Source: Flavihumibacter petaseus NBRC 106054 (GTDB taxonomy: Bacteria; Bacteroidota; Bacteroidia; Chitinophagales; Chitinophagaceae). Taken from it: 64,000 nt of DNA. The notes beneath the pieces were generated by a model. It was given only the letters and a program-made list of their open reading frames with translations. It searched no databases and was not told where the DNA came from. Made by a program: the position numbers and the translations under genes. Shown here piece after piece: positions 1,252 to 37,249 of the stretch; position 1 is the first letter of the stretch; each line of letters opens with the position of its first letter. The stretch covers positions 434,001 through 498,000 of the forward strand of contig NZ_BBWV01000004.1 of the NCBI RefSeq assembly GCF_000974785.1, written 5' to 3'.

Positions 1252-2217
1252 ATGAAGTTAATTACAGCAATCTTGCTCCTGCCCGCACTCGCCTTTGGTC
1301 AGCAATTCACCGGCAAAATTGTAACTGTGGATCCGGCCTTTGAGAAACTGGTTCCCGCTACTGCAAAGGTTGAAATTCTCTCCACCGGGTTTCAGTGGTC
1401 AGAAGGCCCCGTTTGGGTAAAGGACAGTGGTTACCTGTTGTTCTCTGATGTGAAGCGGAATACGATCTTTCAGTGGAGAGGCGGATCAGGTCTGAGTGAA
1501 TTCCTCATGCCCTCCGGATATACAGGCAGGCTGCCGTACAGTTCCGAGCCCGGCAGCAACGGCCTGCTGATCAACCAGGCCGGCGAACTGGTCACCTGTG
1601 AACATGGCGACCGCCGTATTGCTGCGATGCCATTGTCCGGCGGTGGCAAAAGGACATTGGCAGACAATTACCAGGGAAAAAGACTCAATAGCCCCAATGA
1701 TATCGTACAGGGGAAAAACGGAGACTATTACTTCACGGATCCTGCTTATGGAATGCCCCCGGGTACAGCACATCAGCCAATGGGATTGTACCGCCTCTCT
1801 ACGGAAGGCAAGGTTTATCTTATTGATGAGTATTTAGCACCAAACGGTGTTGCCATGTCTCCGGATGGAAAGACACTTTACCTGGCACAATCGCATGATG
1901 AAAAGCCCTTTATCATGGCTTATCCGGTTCAACCCGACGGCAGTGTGGGCAAAGCAAAATTATTCTATGATGCTACGCCATTGCTGAAGGCGGGTCTTAA
2001 AGGAGCGCCGGATGGGTTGAAAACCGATTTGAAGGGCAACGTATTCAGCTCCGGGCCGGGTGGCATTATCGTTATTTCCCCGGATGGAAAATTATTGGGA
2101 AGGATCGAGACCGGACAGCCCACAGCAAATTGTGCCTGGGGTGATGACGGTTCCAGCCTGTTCATCACTGCAAACATGTTGCTGCTGCGCGTACGCACTA
2201 CTACAAAGGGATTTTAG
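1252..2217 (+). CDS. Secreted SMP-30/gluconolactonase family lactonase
   Basis: A 321-residue protein with a short Sec signal peptide (MKLITAILLLPALAFG, cut before QQF), so probably periplasmic. The six-bladed propeller signatures of the SMP-30/gluconolactonase/LRE family are present: WSEGPVW near residue 47, whose Glu is a metal ligand in the family; EPGSNGL; LNSPNDI near residue 145; YFTDPAYG; LAPNGVAMSPDG; and APDGLKTDLKGN near residue 255. The family hydrolyses sugar lactones to aldonic acids with a divalent metal. Its neighbour on the opposite strand is a KDG-kinase/KDPG-aldolase pair, so the product could feed that route, but the two units converge (4-bp stop overlap at 2214-2217) and are not co-transcribed. 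The exact lactone is not readable from the sequence. Confidence 0.88.
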   Translation: MKLITAILLLPALAFGQQFTGKIVTVDPAFEKLVPATAKVEILSTGFQWSEGPVWVKDSGYLLFSDVKRNTIFQWRGGSGLSEFLMPSGYTGRLPYSSEPGSNGLLINQAGELVTCEHGDRRIAAMPLSGGGKRTLADNYQGKRLNSPNDIVQGKNGDYYFTDPAYGMPPGTAHQPMGLYRLSTEGKVYLIDEYLAPNGVAMSPDGKTLYLAQSHDEKPFIMAYPVQPDGSVGKAKLFYDATPLLKAGLKGAPDGLKTDLKGNVFSSGPGGIIVISPDGKLLGRIETGQPTANCAWGDDGSSLFITANMLLLRVRTTTKGF

Positions 2218-3161
2218 GTTCCGTTGAAGATCCTGATCTGACCGCGGATGAGTGCGTACTCAGCACTTACCGGATCAGGTGCGGCCATCCCGATGAATTC
2301 CATGGCAGCCCTGTACAGTGGTTCCATAATACTCCCCCCCACCAGGGTGATCCGGTCAAACTGGTCATTCCTGATAGCCTTCAGTTCCTCACCGATCAGT
2401 AAACCACTTAACCACCAGTAATTGTCCTTTTTATTTTTGCGCTTAAGCACATCATTTGCACGAATCTCAAATGCGAGCGACAATAAGGAATACTCCTGAA
2501 CGCGCAGGACGGCTTCTTTAAAACTGTCGAGATGATCAAGCAAATCAGTGTCCGCATCAATACTCGCAGCAAGAATGCCGTGTGACTGCAACAGCGAAAA
2601 GAATTCTCCCGTCAGGAAAGTCTGGAAACCGGTAAGCACGGAACCTTCAGCAACTGCATGTTTGGAATGCGTGCCAGGAAGGATGAATAACTCCCTCCCT
2701 GCTGATAATGTTGCGGCCCCAATGATCTTTGTTTCCTCTCCACGCATGATATCGCTTCCCGTAGTGAGCCCCGACACCAGTAGCACAGTATGCCTGAACG
2801 CATCACTCTCTGGATACCGCAAAGTCACGAGATGGGGATGCTCGAGGGAGAATGGCAAAGCGGTATAAGCAAGCTCCTGTATTCCAATAGGTGACGAAGC
2901 CATGCCGGAAACGACCAGGGGTAAGCCGGTCAAAGAAAATCCAACTTCAGTTTCAAGTGATTTTATGGCATGCAGCAGGTGATTCCTGTATACCTCGGGC
3001 ATAAGTCCGTATGGTGCTGAATTAACCGGGGATGGCTGATGTATTAACCTGATGCCGGTGTTGGAAGTGTAGGTCGCCAGGATGGCCTGGTCCGTCCTGT
3101 CTGCCAGGTACAACCTGAAATTCGTATTGCCCCAATCACAGCAGAGTATTTTTGTTGTCAT
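2214..3161 (-). CDS. dgoK: 2-dehydro-3-deoxygalactonokinase
   Basis: A DgoK-family kinase of 315 residues starting MTTKILCCDWGNTNFRLYL, with the sugar-kinase fold phosphate-binding Asp-Trp-Gly-Asn/Thr motif at residues 8-11. Later blocks include GLTTGSDIMRGEETKI, PGTHSKHA near residue 165, a FLTGEFF stretch and LVGGSIMEPLYR near the C-terminus. In the DeLey-Doudoroff pathway it phosphorylates 2-keto-3-deoxy-galactonate for the aldolase encoded just upstream. I chose the ATG at 3161 because it gives the family N-terminus and overlaps the end of the aldolase gene by 26 bp. A longer reading from 3197 would add 12 residues lying wholly inside the aldolase gene. No galactonate dehydratase lies beside it. 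Confidence 0.9.
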   Translation of the reverse strand: MTTKILCCDWGNTNFRLYLADRTDQAILATYTSNTGIRLIHQPSPVNSAPYGLMPEVYRNHLLHAIKSLETEVGFSLTGLPLVVSGMASSPIGIQELAYTALPFSLEHPHLVTLRYPESDAFRHTVLLVSGLTTGSDIMRGEETKIIGAATLSAGRELFILPGTHSKHAVAEGSVLTGFQTFLTGEFFSLLQSHGILAASIDADTDLLDHLDSFKEAVLRVQEYSLLSLAFEIRANDVLKRKNKKDNYWWLSGLLIGEELKAIRNDQFDRITLVGGSIMEPLYRAAMEFIGMAAPDPVSAEYALIRGQIRIFNGT

Positions 3162-3780
3162 GTTCAGGACGTAGGTGTCGTAGCAGGTTCGCGGCATTTT
3201 CGGTTACCCTTTGCAGATCCAGGGGGCCTTTTCCAAGCAGGGAAGATCCGATTCCGAATGCCACTGCCCCTGCGTCACTGTATTGCCTTATATTGGAAGC
3301 GTCAATGCCGCCGGTTGGCATCAGCGGGATTTTGTCTAATGGCGCCCTGATATCTTTCAGGTATGCCAGTCCGCCTGCTGCCGGAAATAATTTGATGATC
3401 TCACCGCCATTTCGGTATGCTGCCACCACTTCAGTGGGCGTGAATGCACCGGGAATGCTCACTGCACCCAGTTCCCTTGATTTTTGAATGATGGAGAGAT
3501 CAGTGTGGGGGGAGATGATAAATTTCGCTCCGGCCTGAACTGCAGTGGTTACATCTACTGCGTCAAGCACCGTCCCTGCACCTACAAGCAAAGTATCCGG
3601 ATCAAAATGATCACTGAGCATACTGATGCCCTCGAGGGCCCTTGGGGTATTCAGCGTAATTTCCATGATCCTGACACCGCCTGCTGATAGTGCTTTGGCA
3701 ACAGGCAGAAAGTCTTCATATGCAAGTCCGCGGACGATCGCAATTACCTGGTGCTGCAGAATATGGGAAAGTGCTGTCAC
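3136..3780 (-). CDS. dgoA: KDPG/KDPGal-type class I aldolase
   Basis: A 214-residue member of the Eda/DgoA (KDPG and KHG) aldolase family, close to the usual 205-215. Recognisable blocks are AIVRGLAYEDFLPVAKAL near the start, GVRIMEITLNTPRA with the general-base Glu, LLVGAGTVLDA, GAKFIISPH carrying the Schiff-base Lys, IPGAFTPTEV, IKLFPAAG, and MPTGGIDASNI which binds phosphate. It splits 2-keto-3-deoxy-6-phospho sugar acids to pyruvate and glyceraldehyde 3-phosphate. Its ATG overlaps the hemD stop (ATGA) and its end overlaps dgoK, so the three genes are translationally linked. Adjacent dgoK makes a galactonate role likelier than the Entner-Doudoroff one, though sequence alone cannot decide. 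Confidence 0.9.
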   Translation of the reverse strand: MTALSHILQHQVIAIVRGLAYEDFLPVAKALSAGGVRIMEITLNTPRALEGISMLSDHFDPDTLLVGAGTVLDAVDVTTAVQAGAKFIISPHTDLSIIQKSRELGAVSIPGAFTPTEVVAAYRNGGEIIKLFPAAGGLAYLKDIRAPLDKIPLMPTGGIDASNIRQYSDAGAVAFGIGSSLLGKGPLDLQRVTENAANLLRHLRPEHDNKNTLL

Positions 3781-26043: not shown

Positions 26044-26964
26044 TTACCAGGTACGTTGCGCCATCATGGCATCGAGTTCCGCAGCGGTCATCTTTCCCAA
26101 TTCGGGATGTTTTTCCAGCCATTGTAAAAAGGCTTTCTTAATATCATCGCTCCATTGGCTGTCGATCTGGCCTGTACTGTATTTTCCGCTCCGCACCATT
26201 TCAAATCCGAACTTGTCTTTACGGATAACAAACTCCGCTGTACTGATCACTTTTTCGGCAAGATGCGCAGGAATAAACAACACCCCTTCGCGTTGTCCGA
26301 TCACCAGGTCGCCGGGTAACACCACCGCCTGACCGATACGAATGGGCGTGTTCAACCCCATCAGCACCATCTGCTCAAGAAAAGAGGGATGGAAATCCCG
26401 TACGAAGGCATTAAACCCTTTTATCCGCTGCATTTCCTGCAAGTCACGCGCCGAACCATTGAACACAACACCATTTCCGGATTTACTGAATATGGCTGTT
26501 GCCAGCGTTGACCCCATAAGCGTCCCCCCTGCAATTTTGCCGGAGCCATCCGCCACATAACAATCTCCCTGTTGCAGCACCTCAATCGGCCATGAATTGG
26601 TATTGCCTTTTCTGCCCTGTTCCCGAATACCCCTTTCTTTGATCGATTTTTCCAGGTCCGGCCTGGCCGGCAGGAACATCGCTGTAACTGCCCGACCCAC
26701 TACCGGAACAGAATCATTTACCATTTTCCAGCCACCTTCAAACTGGTTTACATACCCTTCATTTTTCAATACCGTCCACGCGTCATCAATATAGATATGC
26801 CTTGCCCGCTCGAGCAGTCCGTCGGAAATGCGCGGCCGTCCGTCGGGGAACCGCTCTCCTTTCCATTCAGCAGTAAGAAAAACCAGCTCTTCCCTGCTGA
26901 TCTGCTGCGCCTTTAATGACAAACCTGACAATACCAATACAACGATGAAAATCACTTTGTACAT
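26044..26964 (-). CDS. Exported RraA-family (HMG/CHA aldolase-like) protein
   Basis: A 306-residue RraA-fold protein with a Sec signal peptide (MYKVIFIVVLVLSGLSLKAQ). The core has VGRAVTAMFLPARPDLE near residue 90, VLQQGDCYVADGSG, GGTLMGSTLATAIFSKSGNGVVFNGSARDLQEM (Arg and Asp of the GxxRD pair, the divalent-metal/aldolase site in this fold) and VLPGDLVIGQREGVLFIPAHLAE. RraA-like proteins outside proteobacteria are mostly aldolases of 4-hydroxy-4-methyl-2-oxoglutarate type that release pyruvate. The canonical RraA is about 160 residues; both copies here carry long N- and C-terminal extensions. ATG 26964 is preferred over an in-frame TTG at 26973. It is the last gene of the four-gene operon that starts at 30333. 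Confidence 0.78.
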   Translation of the reverse strand: MYKVIFIVVLVLSGLSLKAQQISREELVFLTAEWKGERFPDGRPRISDGLLERARHIYIDDAWTVLKNEGYVNQFEGGWKMVNDSVPVVGRAVTAMFLPARPDLEKSIKERGIREQGRKGNTNSWPIEVLQQGDCYVADGSGKIAGGTLMGSTLATAIFSKSGNGVVFNGSARDLQEMQRIKGFNAFVRDFHPSFLEQMVLMGLNTPIRIGQAVVLPGDLVIGQREGVLFIPAHLAEKVISTAEFVIRKDKFGFEMVRSGKYSTGQIDSQWSDDIKKAFLQWLEKHPELGKMTAAELDAMMAQRTW

Positions 26965-26973
26965 AATGAACAA

Positions 26974-27906
26974 TTAATGTCCTTCTTTGGAAAGATAGTT
27001 TTCGATCTCTGCTTTGCTTACAGCAAGTTCCCGCGGATACTTCGCCACCCATGCCCGGAATTCATTTTTGATCTTTTCCGACCAGTCACCATGTACCTCA
27101 CCAGACGGATATTTCCCCTGTTGCAACAGGTACCGCTCAAACTCGTCGCGCAGCGATACAAGTTCTGCATCCTTCACCAGTCCTTCCGCCAGGTGTGCCG
27201 GAATAAATGCTACTCCAAACTCATTTGCAAATACGATATCGCCGGGCAATACAGTCACTTCACCAATGCGAACAGGCGCATTGATTGCAGTAGGTGTCAT
27301 ATCGCGGATATAAGAAGGGTGCTGTCCTTTCACCCAGGCATTAAATCCCGGCGTTTCTTTCAGCTCCTGCATATCCCGCACCGATCCGTAAAACACCACT
27401 CCTTTTCCGGTCTTGCCATATACCGCATTACCCAGGCTGGAGCCGATCAGCGTACCGTCTTTCACCTTGCCATACCCATCCGCTACATAAATATCATTTT
27501 TGGTCAGGATATCGATCGGCCAGATATTGATGCCACCTTTTTGTGACCGTCCTTCCTCCTTACCTATGCGGCGGACGAGGCTATCGAGATCAGGCCGGGA
27601 GGGCATGAACTGGGCGGTAACGGCACGTCCGGTCATCACTTCACCGGGTTTCAGGATGATCCAGCTGGTCTCCACCTGGTTACGGTAACCCCGACGGTCC
27701 ATATATCCCCACACCTGCTCAAGGGTGCAATGCTGTAAGCGATCAAGGATGATGTCCGGTACCTTGGGTCTACCGTCCGGAAAACGTTCCCCCGTCCACC
27801 CGGAAGTCAGTTGCTTCACCACATCTGGTGGCATGCCCACATGTTGGCCATAAGACCAGTTGTTAACGGACAAAAAAATCAGGAGAAAAGCCAGTAAAAA
27901 TTTCAT
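26974..27906 (-). CDS. Exported RraA-family protein, second copy
   Basis: A 310-residue paralogue of the gene at 26044, with a Sec signal peptide (MKFLLAFLLIFLSVNNWSYGQ). It shares TSGWTGERFPDGRPKVPD near the start, MTGRAVTAQFMPSRPDLD, LTKNDIYVADGYGKVKDGTLIGSSLGNAVYGKTGKGVVFYGSVRDMQEL (the RD pair retained), and VTVLPGDIVFANEFGVAFIPAHLAEGLV. The two copies look clearly homologous but differ throughout, so duplication is not recent. They may have diverged in substrate or form hetero-oligomers. The gene lies 10 bp after the BASS transporter stop and 9 bp before the other RraA gene. An upstream in-frame start at 27978 would lie inside the transporter gene and was rejected. Confidence 0.8.
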   Translation of the reverse strand: MKFLLAFLLIFLSVNNWSYGQHVGMPPDVVKQLTSGWTGERFPDGRPKVPDIILDRLQHCTLEQVWGYMDRRGYRNQVETSWIILKPGEVMTGRAVTAQFMPSRPDLDSLVRRIGKEEGRSQKGGINIWPIDILTKNDIYVADGYGKVKDGTLIGSSLGNAVYGKTGKGVVFYGSVRDMQELKETPGFNAWVKGQHPSYIRDMTPTAINAPVRIGEVTVLPGDIVFANEFGVAFIPAHLAEGLVKDAELVSLRDEFERYLLQQGKYPSGEVHGDWSEKIKNEFRAWVAKYPRELAVSKAEIENYLSKEGH

Positions 27907-27916
27907 GGTGAGTTCT

Positions 27917-28855
27917 TTAACGGTGTTCAGCGGGCGGTTTGCGATGCCAATAGCTGGCCAGCAGCGATCCGGTAACATTCATCAACGGACCGAATACAGC
28001 CGGTGCGAGGCCGACCGTGGCCATCTTGCCCATCTCTTTCGCGAGTCCCGAGGCGAGTCCACCATTCTGCATGCCAACCTCAATAGCAATGGTGCGGCAG
28101 TCTTTTTCGCTCATCCGGAACAAACGCCCTGCCCAATAGCCCAGCGCATAGCCGAAACAGTTATGCAGCAACACCAGCACAATGAGCAGAGGTCCGATCG
28201 TCAGCAGGCTATCGCGCCCCGCAGCGGTGATAATGACGATAATAAATGCAATGCCGAACATGGACAGTTTGGGCATCAGTGCATCCAGCCAGCCTGCTCT
28301 TCCCTGCAGGAATTTGTTGAACAGCAGTCCCGCGCCGATGGGGAGGATGACCATTTTGACGATATCCCACATCATCTTCATCGCATCGATATGAACATAT
28401 GCGCCTGCCAGCCATTTCATCAGCAGCGGCGTCATCAATGGCGCCAGCAAGGTCGAAATGGCCGTGATGGTAACGGAAAGCGCGAGGTTTGCTTTCGCCA
28501 GGTAACACATTACATTGGAAGCAAAGCCCGATGGGGCACAGCCGATTAGAATAATCCCTGCGGCAATCTCCGGCGGTAGTCCGCTGACACTGGCGAGGGT
28601 AAAGCCAAGCGCCGGCATGATGATATAATGACTGACCACCCCAAGGATGACACCCCTGGGCATGCTGATCACGCCTGCAAAATCACGGGCACTCATGGAA
28701 GTGCCCATTCCGAACATGATGACCTGGATGAGGGGTATGATCAGTCCGCTCAGTTTGAAACCAAACCAGGTATTGAACCAATGCGGAACTACCATAGCCA
28801 CCCCAACGGCGGCAAAGATCATGAGGGGATAGGTAAGTCTTTTGATCAGCTCCAT
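27917..28855 (-). CDS. BASS-family sodium-coupled acid symporter
   Basis: A 312-residue membrane protein with about ten hydrophobic segments. It carries the family motifs FGMGTSMSARDFAGV after TM2, GIILIGCAPSGFASNVMCYLAKANLALSV in the first crossover region, and CRTIAIEVGMQNGGLASGLA in the second, the two unwound helix regions that bind sodium and substrate in bile-acid-sodium symporters. Bacterial and plastid members move pyruvate, 2-keto acids or similar anions. It sits between a predicted exported sugar-acid dehydratase (10-bp overlap upstream) and two exported aldolase-like proteins, so import of a keto acid made in the periplasm is a natural reading. The substrate is inferred only from context. 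Confidence 0.85.
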   Translation of the reverse strand: MELIKRLTYPLMIFAAVGVAMVVPHWFNTWFGFKLSGLIIPLIQVIMFGMGTSMSARDFAGVISMPRGVILGVVSHYIIMPALGFTLASVSGLPPEIAAGIILIGCAPSGFASNVMCYLAKANLALSVTITAISTLLAPLMTPLLMKWLAGAYVHIDAMKMMWDIVKMVILPIGAGLLFNKFLQGRAGWLDALMPKLSMFGIAFIIVIITAAGRDSLLTIGPLLIVLVLLHNCFGYALGYWAGRLFRMSEKDCRTIAIEVGMQNGGLASGLAKEMGKMATVGLAPAVFGPLMNVTGSLLASYWHRKPPAEHR

Positions 28856-30333
28856 GTACGGTCGTGTGAACGTTTTTCATCCCATTCTTTCGTGGGAGCG
28901 AAATAGGATTTATCACGCGGGTCAAGATGTTGCTTCAGCACTTCCTCATTCAGCTCTATGCCCAGGCCTGGTGCGGTCAGCGGCACATTGGCATAACCCT
29001 TGGTGATCAGCTGCCGCCCATCGGTGGTTTTCACGAGGCTTTCCCACCAGGGAAGGTCAACAGAATGATGCTCCAGCGCCAGGAAATTCTGTGTAGCGGC
29101 AGCACAGTGCACATTCGCCATAAAAGAGACAGGTGTGCCAGCCTGGTGCATAGCCATGGCGATACCGTTTTCTTCGGCGTAATCGCCAATGCGTTTGGTT
29201 TCGAGCAATCCGCCCGAGGTGGCCAGATCGGGGTGCACAATATCAACGGCATGCTGATCGATCAGCGGTTTGAAGTTTTGCAACAGGTAAATATCTTCGC
29301 CGGTCAGTGTCGGCGTTTCAAGCGCTTGTGAAATGGTCTTATGTTGCTCGGTATACTGCCAGGGCACCATATCCTCCAGCCAGGCGAGTCGGTATTTTTC
29401 CAGTTTTTTGCCCAGCCGGATCATATTATTCATGTCGAAATGACCGTAATGGTCAGTAGAAAGTGGCACCTGGTCACCAATTACGGCCCGCACGTCTGCA
29501 ACCCGCTGCGCGAGAAGATCCAGCCCCTTTTCGGTCACCTGGATGCCGGTAAACGGGTGCATGGTATTGGCATAAGACATATAGTCTCCATTCCATTGTG
29601 CAAGTTCCTTGCCCCAGAAATCGCTGTTGACCAGGGTTCCCGGTACACCTTTCAGGATGCCGATCGACACATCCATTTTCAACCAGGTGTAACCCTGGTC
29701 AAACATCCTGTAGTTCACTCTCTTTTTGAATTCAGCCAGGTCACTTGATTCGGGCGTGTCGGCATAGATCCGGATCTTATCGCGGTAACGGCCGCCCAGC
29801 AACTGCCACGCGGGAACATTGTAGGCCTTGCCGCATATATCCCATAGCGCCATCTCTACCGCACAAACGCCACCTCCCTGCCTTGCCTGCCCACCGAATT
29901 GTTTGAGTGATTTGAAGACCATTTCCACGTTACAGGGGTTCATCCCCAGGATCCGGCTTTTCAGCATTAGTGCATAGCGTACATCTGAAGCATCGCGCAC
30001 TTCGCCCAGGCCATAAATGCCCTGGTTGGTATCTATCCTGATGATTGCTGTTCCGCCCATTACGGCGGTGAGGCAATAGCGCATATCCGTGATCTTCAGG
30101 TCTGCCGGTGCGGAATAGCGGCTCACTTTCTGGGTGCTTTGTGCAATCAGTTCTTCGATCGGGGAAAAAATTGTGGCAGCACCAAGTGCAATACCTCCAA
30201 GCGTGGATTGTTTGAAGAAATTCCTGCGGCTGTTTTCGCCGGCAGCAGGTACGGCGGAAGGGTTTTCATTCGTTGGCAGGCAATCGGGCTCCCTGAGCCC
30301 CAGGCCTGCCAGCAATCGTTGTGCGGGCGTCAT
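28846..30333 (-). CDS. Tat-exported mandelate racemase/muconate lactonizing enzyme family protein
   Basis: A 495-residue enolase-superfamily protein. A Tat signal begins with SRRNFFKQS near residue 35, then a hydrophobic LGGIALGAATIFSP, so a folded, metal-loaded enzyme is likely exported. The capping domain follows (IIRIDTNQGIYGLGEVRDAS), then the barrel with metal ligands in STDHYGH (Asp294), WLEDM (Glu320) and TGEDI (Glu346), Lys219 in TWLKMD, and His396 in AMAMHQAGT at strand 7. These residues fit acid-sugar dehydratases (galactonate, gluconate or mannonate types) that yield 2-keto-3-deoxy acids. It is the first gene of the operon, and its end overlaps the symporter start. Which acid sugar is dehydrated cannot be read from the sequence. 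Confidence 0.83.
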   Translation of the reverse strand: MTPAQRLLAGLGLREPDCLPTNENPSAVPAAGENSRRNFFKQSTLGGIALGAATIFSPIEELIAQSTQKVSRYSAPADLKITDMRYCLTAVMGGTAIIRIDTNQGIYGLGEVRDASDVRYALMLKSRILGMNPCNVEMVFKSLKQFGGQARQGGGVCAVEMALWDICGKAYNVPAWQLLGGRYRDKIRIYADTPESSDLAEFKKRVNYRMFDQGYTWLKMDVSIGILKGVPGTLVNSDFWGKELAQWNGDYMSYANTMHPFTGIQVTEKGLDLLAQRVADVRAVIGDQVPLSTDHYGHFDMNNMIRLGKKLEKYRLAWLEDMVPWQYTEQHKTISQALETPTLTGEDIYLLQNFKPLIDQHAVDIVHPDLATSGGLLETKRIGDYAEENGIAMAMHQAGTPVSFMANVHCAAATQNFLALEHHSVDLPWWESLVKTTDGRQLITKGYANVPLTAPGLGIELNEEVLKQHLDPRDKSYFAPTKEWDEKRSHDRTWS

Positions 30334-35539: not shown

Positions 35540-37249
35540 TTAGTTCTTTTTCGTCGGCTTCACTTTACCCTTTTTGGCAGGCGCTGCTTCTTTTGCAGCC
35601 TCTTCCCGTTTCTTATCGTATTCCTGCTTCATGATCTTAAGTTCATTTTCCAAACGAATATTTCCAATCACCTGGTTCATGATGGTTGTCGGATTAAAGC
35701 TTGGTGGAATTGACCTCGGTGGCCATTCCTTGAATGTCATGGCAAAATCGACTACTTCCTGCATCACACCATAGATTGAACCCACATGATTCAACTGCCA
35801 ATCCCAAAAGGTATTCGACGTGATATCTGCTCTTTCATACGGATCCTGGAACAGGTTGAAGATCTTTTGCAGGCGGAGTTCCGTAAATGGTTCAGCCCAT
35901 ACACCCATTGTTCCCTGCATTCTTTGTTCGGCAAATACATACTTATAGTCTCCCTTGCGATATGCCACAAGTAGCCCATCATCATTGGAATAAAAGAAAT
36001 TGTCCCTGGCACTATGCACGCCATTATTGTTTCCGGCCGAACCACTGACAGTCTGGAGAAACTTGGATTGATCATAACCATCAAGATGAACCTTATAGGT
36101 ATGGCCGTTTGCTGAATAGCCGGCGATAAGCTTTGCCTTGATGTCCGGTTCTCCGGCAATGGCACAGAGCGTAGGGATCCAATCGTTGTGACTCATCAGT
36201 TCATTACTTACAGTGCCGGGCTTAATGTGACCAGGCCAGCGCACCAGGCAGGGTACTCTGAAAGCGCCTTCCCAGTTGGTGTTTTTTTCAGAACGGTAAG
36301 GCGTCATTGCACCATCCGGCCAGGTATTCATATGCGGACCATTATCTGTCGAATAAACGACGATCGTATTGTCGGTAATACCCAGCTCATCCAATACCTT
36401 AAGAATAGAACCGATGGTCTCATCGTGTTCAATCATCCCGTCATTATATTCGCTGTCACCATGTTTGTAACGTCCACGGTGTTCAGTTCTTACATGCGTA
36501 CGGAGGTGCATACGGGTTGAATTAAACCAACAGAAGAATGGTTTACCGGCGGCTTTCTGCCTTTTGATAAAATCGATGGCAGCGGCTGAAGTTTCATCAT
36601 CAACGGTTTCCATTCTTTTTTTGGTCAGCGGACCCGTGTCTTCAATTTTCTGCCTGCCAATCTTGCCAAAACGGGGATCTTCTTTGGGATCATCAACCGT
36701 GGTTGCATAGCAATGCAATACTCCTCTCGGACCAAACTTTGCCAGGTACGCGGGGTCTTTGGGATAATCTGGCAGTTCAGGTTCTTCCTCGGCATTCAGG
36801 TGATAAAGGTTTCCGAAAAACTCATCAAACCCATTAACGGTAGGAAGGGATTCGTTACGATCGCCGACATGGTTCTTTCCAAACTGCCCGGTAACATAAC
36901 CCAGACTTTGAAGCAGCCCACCAACGGAAGGGTCCAGCTGGCTCATCCCCATTGGTGCGCCGGGGAAACCAACCTTGGTGAGCCCAGAGCGAATCCCATG
37001 TTGTCCGGTCAAAAAAGCAGCCCGGCCGGCCGTACAGGATTGTTCTCCATAATAATGCTGCAATTTAAGACCCTCTTTGGCAAGCCGGTCAATGTTAGGC
37101 GTTTCATACCCCATCACACCACCACTGTAAGCGCTGACGTTCGTGGTCCCGATATCATCTCCCCATAAAACCACAATGTTAGGTTTTTGCTGTGCATGCG
37201 CCAGGGACATAATTCCCAAAGCACAAACGAGTGTGATTCCTTTATTCAT
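35540..37249 (-). CDS. Periplasmic type I arylsulfatase
   Basis: A 569-residue sulfatase with a signal peptide (MNKGITLVCALGIMSLAHAQ). The sulfatase N-terminal signature KPNIVVLWGDDIG supplies two metal-binding Asp residues. SCTAGRAAFLTGQ (Cys72) follows the C-x-(P/A)-x-R consensus for conversion to formylglycine. FGKNHVGD carries the expected Lys/His pair, and YSTDNGPHMNTWPDG supplies the second metal ligands (Asp/Asn). The C-terminus ends in a Lys/Ala-rich tail (KEAAPAKKGKVKPTKKN). No sulfatase-maturase gene is present in the window. It sits after a GH130-like gene (121-bp gap) and before the terminator at 35495, so it may be part of a glycan-use locus; the sulfated substrate is unknown. 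Confidence 0.9.
   Translation of the reverse strand: MNKGITLVCALGIMSLAHAQQKPNIVVLWGDDIGTTNVSAYSGGVMGYETPNIDRLAKEGLKLQHYYGEQSCTAGRAAFLTGQHGIRSGLTKVGFPGAPMGMSQLDPSVGGLLQSLGYVTGQFGKNHVGDRNESLPTVNGFDEFFGNLYHLNAEEEPELPDYPKDPAYLAKFGPRGVLHCYATTVDDPKEDPRFGKIGRQKIEDTGPLTKKRMETVDDETSAAAIDFIKRQKAAGKPFFCWFNSTRMHLRTHVRTEHRGRYKHGDSEYNDGMIEHDETIGSILKVLDELGITDNTIVVYSTDNGPHMNTWPDGAMTPYRSEKNTNWEGAFRVPCLVRWPGHIKPGTVSNELMSHNDWIPTLCAIAGEPDIKAKLIAGYSANGHTYKVHLDGYDQSKFLQTVSGSAGNNNGVHSARDNFFYSNDDGLLVAYRKGDYKYVFAEQRMQGTMGVWAEPFTELRLQKIFNLFQDPYERADITSNTFWDWQLNHVGSIYGVMQEVVDFAMTFKEWPPRSIPPSFNPTTIMNQVIGNIRLENELKIMKQEYDKKREEAAKEAAPAKKGKVKPTKKN

Follow-up and report, generated by a model that had tools for sequence, protein, structure and literature searches.

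The Operon and Its Products

This analysis concerns four consecutive genes in the genome of Flavihumibacter petaseus NBRC 106054 (GCF_000974785.1; 5.69 Mb, 99.74% complete; G000 in our sets), which lie within a stretch of 64,000 nt, positions 434,001-498,000 of NZ_BBWV01000004.1, henceforth called the window. On the minus strand they encode, in this order, an enolase-superfamily protein with a putative twin-arginine translocation (Tat) signal (Eno495), a symporter of the BASS family and two RraA-family proteins with Sec-type signals, RraA1 and RraA2 (table 1). A first-pass annotation of this DNA had described a four-gene operon with products of these families, and both statements stand: The Eno495 and BASS genes overlap by 10 bp, gaps of 10 and 9 bp separate BASS from RraA1 and RraA1 from RraA2, and each gene is an uninterrupted reading frame, with its only stop at the end. 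The domain assignments match Pfam (MR_MLE_C 158, MR_MLE_N 39, SBF 135, RraA-like 68 and 61 bits, the last two exceeding the 24.5-bit gathering score of PF03737). Eno495 has the cap and barrel domains of the MR/MLE members of the superfamily, with the three acidic metal-ligand positions conserved (a ligand role assigned by analogy), and the symporter combines the SBF domain with similarity to solved BASS members (207 bits to 3zuy; 8oyf and 8oyg were also matched). The start of RraA1 is taken as the signal-bearing ATG at 27906; a mechanically called frame of 334 residues begins further upstream. The grouping of the four genes is more than a chance one, and it recurs in other genomes.

Table 1. 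The four genes, the twin-arginine motif and possible partners in the window
Feature	Position	Strand	Remarks
Eno495, enolase-superfamily (MR/MLE) protein, Tat signal	28846..30333	-	495 aa; Pfam MR_MLE_N/C; best PDB relative 2qq6, 183 bits
Twin-arginine motif SRRNFFKQS, residues 35-43 of Eno495	30205..30231	-	precedes hydrophobic stretch
BASS-family symporter, PanS/ASBT(NM)-like	27917..28855	-	312 aa; Pfam SBF
RraA1, RraA-family protein, Sec-type signal	26974..27906	-	310 aa; PF03737 68 bits; R-D pair present
RraA2, RraA-family protein, Sec-type signal	26044..26964	-	306 aa; PF03737 61 bits; R-D pair present
SMP-30/gluconolactonase-like protein, Sec-like start (by eye)	1252..2217	+	PF08450 146 bits; possible partner, outside operon
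2-keto-3-deoxy-galactonokinase (DGOK)	2214..3161	-	PF05035 184 bits; possible cytosolic partner, ~23 kb from operon
KDPG/KDPGal-type aldolase	3136..3780	-	PF01081 136 bits; TIGR01182 168 bits, above 156 cut-off; possible cytosolic partner, ~22 kb from operon

Export Signals and Their Conservation

Eno495 starts with an n-region of 34 residues, after which come the twin-arginine motif and a hydrophobic stretch, while RraA1 and RraA2 start with MKFLLAFLLIFLSVNNWSYGQ and MYKVIFIVVLVLSGLSLKAQ, respectively. The genome encodes TatC (212 bits, in a search for this component of the translocase); with its paired arginines ahead of a hydrophobic stretch and TatC in the same genome, Eno495 has the features of a predicted Tat substrate. 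By eye, no export signal appears at the start of the four other enolase-superfamily hits of this genome.

Relatives were drawn from genomes of the family, from a sample of the phylum and from a scan of named records that matched at least 590 stretches; of these, at least 576 code for a relative by tblastn (E <= 1e-3), and we kept the best 80. Open reading frames (ORFs) were called and then grouped by BLAST. The 77 named loci discussed below are these 80 minus L174 and L185, which hold arrays of enolases, and L191, a short contig from the same metagenome-assembled genome (MAG) as L185. The family set comprises 43 loci, including L069, where a stop interrupts Eno495; some genomes contribute to both sets, and truncated loci are common.

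Tat-like and Sec-like patterns were scored in these loci by fixed script rules. The former occurs in 131 of 142 enolases, counting together Eno495 and a second type that we call Eno426, against 0/28 FGGY kinases, 0/25 AraC regulators and 35/560 of the remaining ORFs there; the 11 enolases lacking it were inspected only in part. The Sec-like pattern occurs in 115 of 124 RraA proteins, against 0/28 FGGY kinases, 1/25 AraC regulators and 194/560 other ORFs, and is also scored in 42 of 49 BASS proteins owing to a membrane helix. All 58 enolases of the first gene set (Eno495 and Eno426 of the family genomes, window included, two duplicates, L110 and L111, having been taken out) have the twin-arginine motif, and the two arginines are invariant in our alignment A1 of 22 sequences. 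The phylum sample gave 18 loci, 16 of them with a readable enolase start and each of these with the twin arginine; the exceptions are L118, read at a wrong position (the same gene is L103 of the first set), and L120, read in a wrong frame. Within the named set, RRx[FWVLIM] is present in 80/84 Eno495 proteins, the four misses falling in L174 and L185 (three have QRRN[TA], one is cut at the contig start), in 21/26 Eno426 proteins, those without it (in L174, L185 and L200) showing SRR and then different residues, and in 5/6 UxuA proteins. L174 and L185, MAG contigs titled Pedobacter and Sphingobacterium, hold six consecutive enolase-superfamily ORFs, and several of these have other twin-arginine starts (QRRNTLKM, SRRDALKM).

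We also considered whether the signals could be artefacts of wrongly chosen starts, an explanation that we reject because divergent relatives have them too, whereas the neighbouring FGGY kinases and nearly all regulators do not. The Tat signal of the enolase and the Sec signals of both RraA proteins, as read in the first-pass annotation, are thus borne out, and the comparison supports a set of predicted exported enzymes alongside an organic-anion symporter, with signals kept across Bacteroidota.

The Active Site of Eno495

Residue roles in Eno495 are assumed here, including that of the His of the DxH motif, which we take to be the catalytic acid of GalD/ManD-type dehydratases. The active site was compared in 102 distinct Eno495 and 28 Eno426 proteins, one Eno495 (the broken L069 copy) being without its C-terminal half. 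D294, E320, E346, D369, H396 and E421 are conserved in both types, save for one Eno426 at position 369; K219 and D221 never vary in Eno495 and hardly do so in Eno426. The two types part at position 296, which corresponds to the His of DMHGR in 2qq6: It is His in 28/28 Eno426, so that this type looks like a GalD-type dehydratase, and Tyr (94/102) or Phe (8/102) in Eno495, with Trp or Thr also seen among the more distant members of alignment A1. Eno495 has instead invariant H295 and H298, plus H422 and H423 where that region is present, and an insert of about 40 residues relative to Eno426, ahead of the D294 motif. We regard it as a separate subfamily of enolases by sequence, with the signature D-H-[YF]-G-H. 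Its best NCBIfam models are galactonate dehydratase (173 bits, cut-off 311) and ManD (154 bits, cut-off 550), so that by model scores as well as by the replaced His it falls outside the GalD/ManD type proper. Dehydration of a sugar acid by Eno495 is therefore graded here as likely and not higher, because the GalD-type His is Tyr or Phe in every one of the 102 proteins.

The RraA Proteins and the Symporter

Motif scoring of the RraA proteins used a form of the second metal-binding motif that we presume to be the correct one. The R-D pair is present in 123/123 distinct RraA proteins. Position R-21, where the HMG/CHA aldolase 3noj aligns with Asp (D-X20-R-D), is Asp in 91, Ser in 29 and Ala in 3 of them. 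Both window copies lack this Asp, having Ser at R-21 and Glu at R+4 (S-X20-R-D-X2-E), and belong to 18/123 proteins with Ser or Ala at R-21 plus Glu at R+4; neither acid, as scored, is found in 14/123. No NCBIfam model reaches its cut-off with RraA1 or RraA2. In the literature, most RraA homologues are said to have one of two metal-binding motifs and hence to be probably class II pyruvate aldolases (PMC5065237), while in Flavobacterium sp. UMI-01 the RraA-family enzyme FlDet forms alpha-ketoglutaric semialdehyde from 2-keto-3-deoxy-D-glucarate (PMC8563752). Since the family thus includes a dehydratase/decarboxylase, the earlier assignment of these proteins to the RraA family stands, and their naming as aldolases is not established.

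The BASS protein scores 240 bits with the PanS model, below the cut-off of 400 bits. A related transporter, ASBT(NM), binds pantoate according to PMC10645422, which by analogy fits a small 2-hydroxy or 2-oxo acid as the BASS substrate.

Distribution and Gene Neighbourhood

Eno495 (E <= 1e-60) was found in 45 of 294 family genomes and, across the phylum sample, in 15 of 395, G000 entering both counts. Its occurrence in the genus is patchy, with one of five other sampled genomes having it (G272, 58% identity). By their titles, the best 80 named loci belong to Bacteroidota, including Chitinophagales, Cytophagales, Sphingobacteriales, Flavobacteriia and Prolixibacteraceae, with the one exception of L146, a record titled Williamsia (an actinobacterium); this is a typical Chitinophagaceae locus in a MAG that is probably mislabelled.

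The most constant companion of Eno495 is RraA, adjoining it on the same strand in 68/77 named and 36/43 family loci; two or more RraA genes are present in 21/77 and 13/43, respectively. A BASS gene is found in 35/77 named and 21/43 family loci, and either BASS or a major facilitator superfamily (MFS) protein resembling the D-galactonate transporter in 41/77 and 29/43. SusC (45/77 and 22/43), SusD (43/77 and 22/43) and FGGY kinases (21/77 and 21/43) are also recurrent. Among the ORFs identified in the loci there is no recurring group of glycoside hydrolases, most other ORFs not having been scanned. Eno495, BASS and two RraA genes stand within four genes on one strand in 16/77 named and 13/43 family loci, examples being L186 (Flavobacteriaceae bacterium CP2B) and L188 (Arenibacter sp.); most Chitinophagaceae cases have the form RraA-Eno495-BASS-RraA-Eno426, which adds a second exported pair. 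The nearest arrangement of the four genes is that of G227 (L071: RraA1, RraA2, Eno495, BASS), with an RraA1 85% identical to that of the window. Distance matrices of Eno495 and its company correlate with r = 0.34 for RraA (67 loci), 0.48 for SusC (38) and 0.51 for BASS (33), each above all 2000 permutations; we do not rely on these values, given that shared ancestry alone yields such correlations and paralogues are mixed.

Other neighbours deserve mention. A small protein, identified as DUF4440 in the single copy examined, lies near Eno495 in 14/77 loci, for example L180:10904-11329, beside BASS in 12 of the 14, and mostly has a signal-like start. YhcH/YiaL (DUF386) proteins lie near the MFS version of the locus, at L073:6661-7272 (by Pfam, with a Sec-like start) and L098:1386-1835 (by BLAST). 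In the window itself, a sulfatase with a Sec-like start is encoded at 35540-37249 on the strand of the operon, about 5 kb upstream and not adjacent.

Sugar-Acid Pathway Genes in Relatives and in the Same Genome

Enzymes of sugar-acid dehydration and aldol-type reactions are cytosolic in textbook pathways. What, then, might export signals on such enzymes mean? Two relatives give context. The Flavobacteriaceae MAG locus L197 carries in one direction SusC, SusD, three UxuA-like genes with Tat motifs (one of which was tested with a hidden Markov model), Eno495, RraA, a pyrroloquinoline quinone (PQQ) dehydrogenase, BASS, a kinase of the 2-keto-3-deoxygluconate (KDG) type and an aldolase for its 6-phosphate (KDPG). 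L098 has an MFS transporter, PQQ dehydrogenase, RraA, Tat-type UxuA, Eno495 and a KDG-type kinase, together with a KDPG aldolase encoded on the opposite strand. UxuA proteins with Tat motifs, found in 4/77 named loci, exceed the mannonate dehydratase subfamily cut-off in L098 and L197 and were recognized by BLAST in the others. The KDG-type kinase was recognized by hidden Markov model in L184 (under cut-offs) and by BLAST in L186, L197, L213 and L098, and the KDPG aldolase scores above cut-off in L197, with L098 and the cut L184 found by BLAST. The PQQ dehydrogenases of L197, L212 and L098 are 43-46% identical to the copy in the window's genome; that of L180 is closest to the membrane glucose dehydrogenase model (474 of 833 bits). 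The MFS protein of L073 reaches 266 bits with the D-galactonate transporter model, under the 395 cut-off, and two FGGY kinases tested are best matched by gluconokinase and xylulokinase, also under cut-off. Together, the predicted families support sugar-acid metabolism as the context of the module in some relatives, a minority of the loci.

Two further gene groups in the F. petaseus genome look related to this metabolism. At 1252-3780 of the window, a lactonase-like gene faces the pair of DGOK and KDPG-type aldolase (table 1), a set that looks like the lower De Ley-Doudoroff enzymes. Its genes were considered as members of the module and set aside: Because the ORFs of the other loci (L064-L111, L136-L215) yielded no DGOK-like or lactonase-like match, we claim for them co-presence in one genome alone. 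The second group, some 330 kb from the operon (contig C19, 120.9-128.8 kb; L220, 6860-14757), comprises UxaC, which scores above cut-off, three products that stay below theirs (an MFS protein near the D-galactonate model, a KDPG-type aldolase and a KDG-type kinase) and a PQQ dehydrogenase whose start resembles that of a lipoprotein; by eye, a Na+/H+ exchanger-like protein is also present. The idea that nothing but Eno495 could feed the DGOK and aldolases of this genome was rejected, for the genome also encodes three further PF13378 proteins that pass the cut-off, as well as two PF00920 proteins, one of which resembles IlvD by its neighbour while the other could be a sugar-acid dehydratase (by eye).

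A Proposed Compartment-Split Pathway and Its Alternatives

The export signals, the protein families, the operon, the recurrence of its genes and the pathway setting in relatives are seen in the sequences themselves; from them we infer the substrate and the reactions, the order in which these occur and which way transport runs. The explanation that we favour with moderate confidence is a sugar-acid pathway split between compartments, with one part outside the inner membrane and its product then imported. Exported by Tat, Eno495 would act on a sugar acid beyond the inner membrane, abstracting its alpha-proton and eliminating water to give a 2-keto-3-deoxy acid. RraA1 and RraA2, exported by Sec, would carry out enolate chemistry on this 2-oxo acid in the same compartment, either aldol cleavage or dehydration with decarboxylation, and BASS would bring the resulting small 2-oxo acid (a 2-keto-3-deoxy acid or pyruvate) into the cell, where a kinase for KDG or its galactonate counterpart (KDGal) and KDPG aldolase, or central metabolism, would complete the breakdown. 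Such a division fits the enzyme families, the symporter and the downstream enzymes. Processing before import is favoured because RraA is so steadily present, while an uncleaved 2-keto-3-deoxy acid is favoured as the imported product because the KDG-type kinase adjoins BASS in L186, L197 and L213; the imported compound may thus be such an acid rather than pyruvate. We know of no BASS symporter that carries a 2-keto-3-deoxy acid, and no paper on the module was found among the literature matches listed.

A number of observations weigh against the compartment-split pathway. The reaction of Eno495 may differ from ordinary dehydration, given the Tyr or Phe in place of the DxH His. The added genes are rare in the 77 named loci, many of which are short: UxuA and the KDG-type kinase occur in 4 each (the kinase also as one cut fragment) and the PQQ dehydrogenase in 3. 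The window operon has no adjacent SusC/D, kinase or aldolase, and with other enolase-superfamily and two PF00920 proteins in the genome, its DGOK and aldolases need not depend on the operon. RraA is also wider in distribution, RraA1 (E <= 1e-40) occurring in 71/294 family genomes as against 45/294 for Eno495. Finally, the exact order Eno495-BASS-RraA-RraA was not found elsewhere in the tabulated loci of the family and named sets, and after G227 the nearest relatives of the RraA pair (RraA1 73-75% identical) are in L107-L109, which have no enolase. In these loci, of genomes G223, G098 and G122, RraA1-RraA2 lies beside MFS, MFS and BASS, respectively, with no enolase within 16 kb and Eno495 elsewhere in each genome. 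The RraA pair with a transporter is therefore partly a unit of its own, and the four genes form a loose rather than a fixed module: The expected recurrence of the same four-gene order holds for the grouping and fails for the exact order.

The first-pass annotation had gone further, to a complete periplasmic route in which a dehydratase and an aldolase act outside and a keto-acid symporter imports pyruvate-like products. Predicted exported enzymes and a symporter remain of this proposal; the superfamily of the enolase is confirmed, its metal-ligand and His-Asp positions being conserved, as is the BASS family of the carrier, and the dehydratase and aldolase roles and the pyruvate cargo are not established. 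As one branch of the compartment-split pathway, this version, with RraA as class II pyruvate aldolase finishing the cleavage outside and BASS importing pyruvate, is possible but on balance unlikely. It agrees with the universal R-D pair and the 3noj-type Asp of most RraA proteins (the window copies having Ser there, and Glu at R+4), as well as with the motif argument of PMC5065237; yet it would make superfluous the KDG-type kinase beside BASS in L186, L197 and L213, and further on in L184, as well as the KDPG aldolase of L197 and the cut L184, and the 14 RraA proteins with neither metal-binding motif as scored do not follow it.

Another explanation for export would lie in the size of the substrate: Eno495 might act on an oligosaccharide with an acidic end sugar, entering via SusC/D and too big for an inner-membrane carrier. 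SusC in 45/77 loci and the insert of Eno495 relative to Eno426 point that way, as does an ORF close to the L065 locus that looks GH105-like by eye, but SusC was not seen in the other 32/77 (some cut short), and BASS and MFS carriers suit small acids, so that we consider it improbable. We think no better of the chances that the enzymes are exported and Eno495 is a racemase/epimerase or a lactonising enzyme, no dehydratase: The replaced His would accord with this, and the invariant K219 together with the H396-D369 pair could supply two bases (in the roles presumed above), but the best models are GalD and ManD dehydratases and a Tat-type UxuA occurs in a few of the same loci. Least probable is an RraA acting, like FlDet (PMC8563752), as dehydratase/decarboxylase of 2-keto-3-deoxy-aldarates in a module for glucarate/galactarate-type diacids, for although FlDet does make alpha-ketoglutaric semialdehyde from 2-keto-3-deoxy-D-glucarate, it is smaller (~27 kDa) than the RraA proteins here, and that paper contains neither 'signal peptide' nor 'periplasm'.

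The compartment-split pathway may have a wider form, which we put forward as a tentative proposal: In some Bacteroidota, the opening half of an Entner-Doudoroff-type pathway might take place in the periplasm, with a PQQ enzyme oxidizing the sugar, Tat-exported dehydratases (Eno495 with D-H-Y-G-H, and UxuA) forming the 2-keto-3-deoxy acid, exported RraA processing it and BASS importing it for kinase and aldolase. If true, an added layer of catabolism would stand between the breakdown of polysaccharides and central metabolism across several bacteroidotan orders, judging from the 77 named loci and from the export signals that almost every checked copy carries, and testable functions would be at hand for three groups together: a distinct enolase subfamily, exported RraA proteins and the BASS carriers of Bacteroidota.

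Comparison with Known Systems

Eno495 shares with GalD and ManD dehydratases its domains, the metal-ligand positions and the His-Asp pair, and differs from them in scoring under the curated cut-offs, in having D-H-[YF]-G-H in place of D-x-H-G-R, and in its Tat signal, insert and C-terminal tail. RraA1 and RraA2 have the PF03737 domain and R-D pair in common with HMG/CHA aldolase, RraA proteins and FlDet; unlike these, they are about 310 residues long, with a Sec-type signal and extra N- and C-terminal parts. The window BASS protein is similar to PanS and ASBT(NM) along most of its length (240 and 207 bits), whereas many of its relatives have some 50-60 extra hydrophobic residues at the N-terminus and the window protein itself lies under the PanS cut-off. 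With Sus-type polysaccharide utilization loci the named loci share SusC and SusD at the frequencies given above, although none of the identified SusC/SusD groups lies beside the window operon. In Maribacter, induced sugar-acid enzymes are encoded near a polysaccharide utilization locus and those in its region are called cytoplasmic; RraA goes unmentioned in that paper (PMC11036162). With the semi-phosphorylative Entner-Doudoroff and De Ley-Doudoroff pathways, finally, the system shares the families of dehydratase-type enzymes, KDG/KDGal kinase and KDPG/KDPGal aldolase, which are encoded either in this genome or at loci of certain relatives; it departs from their textbook form in the Tat motifs of Eno495, Eno426 and UxuA and in the involvement of predicted exported RraA proteins.

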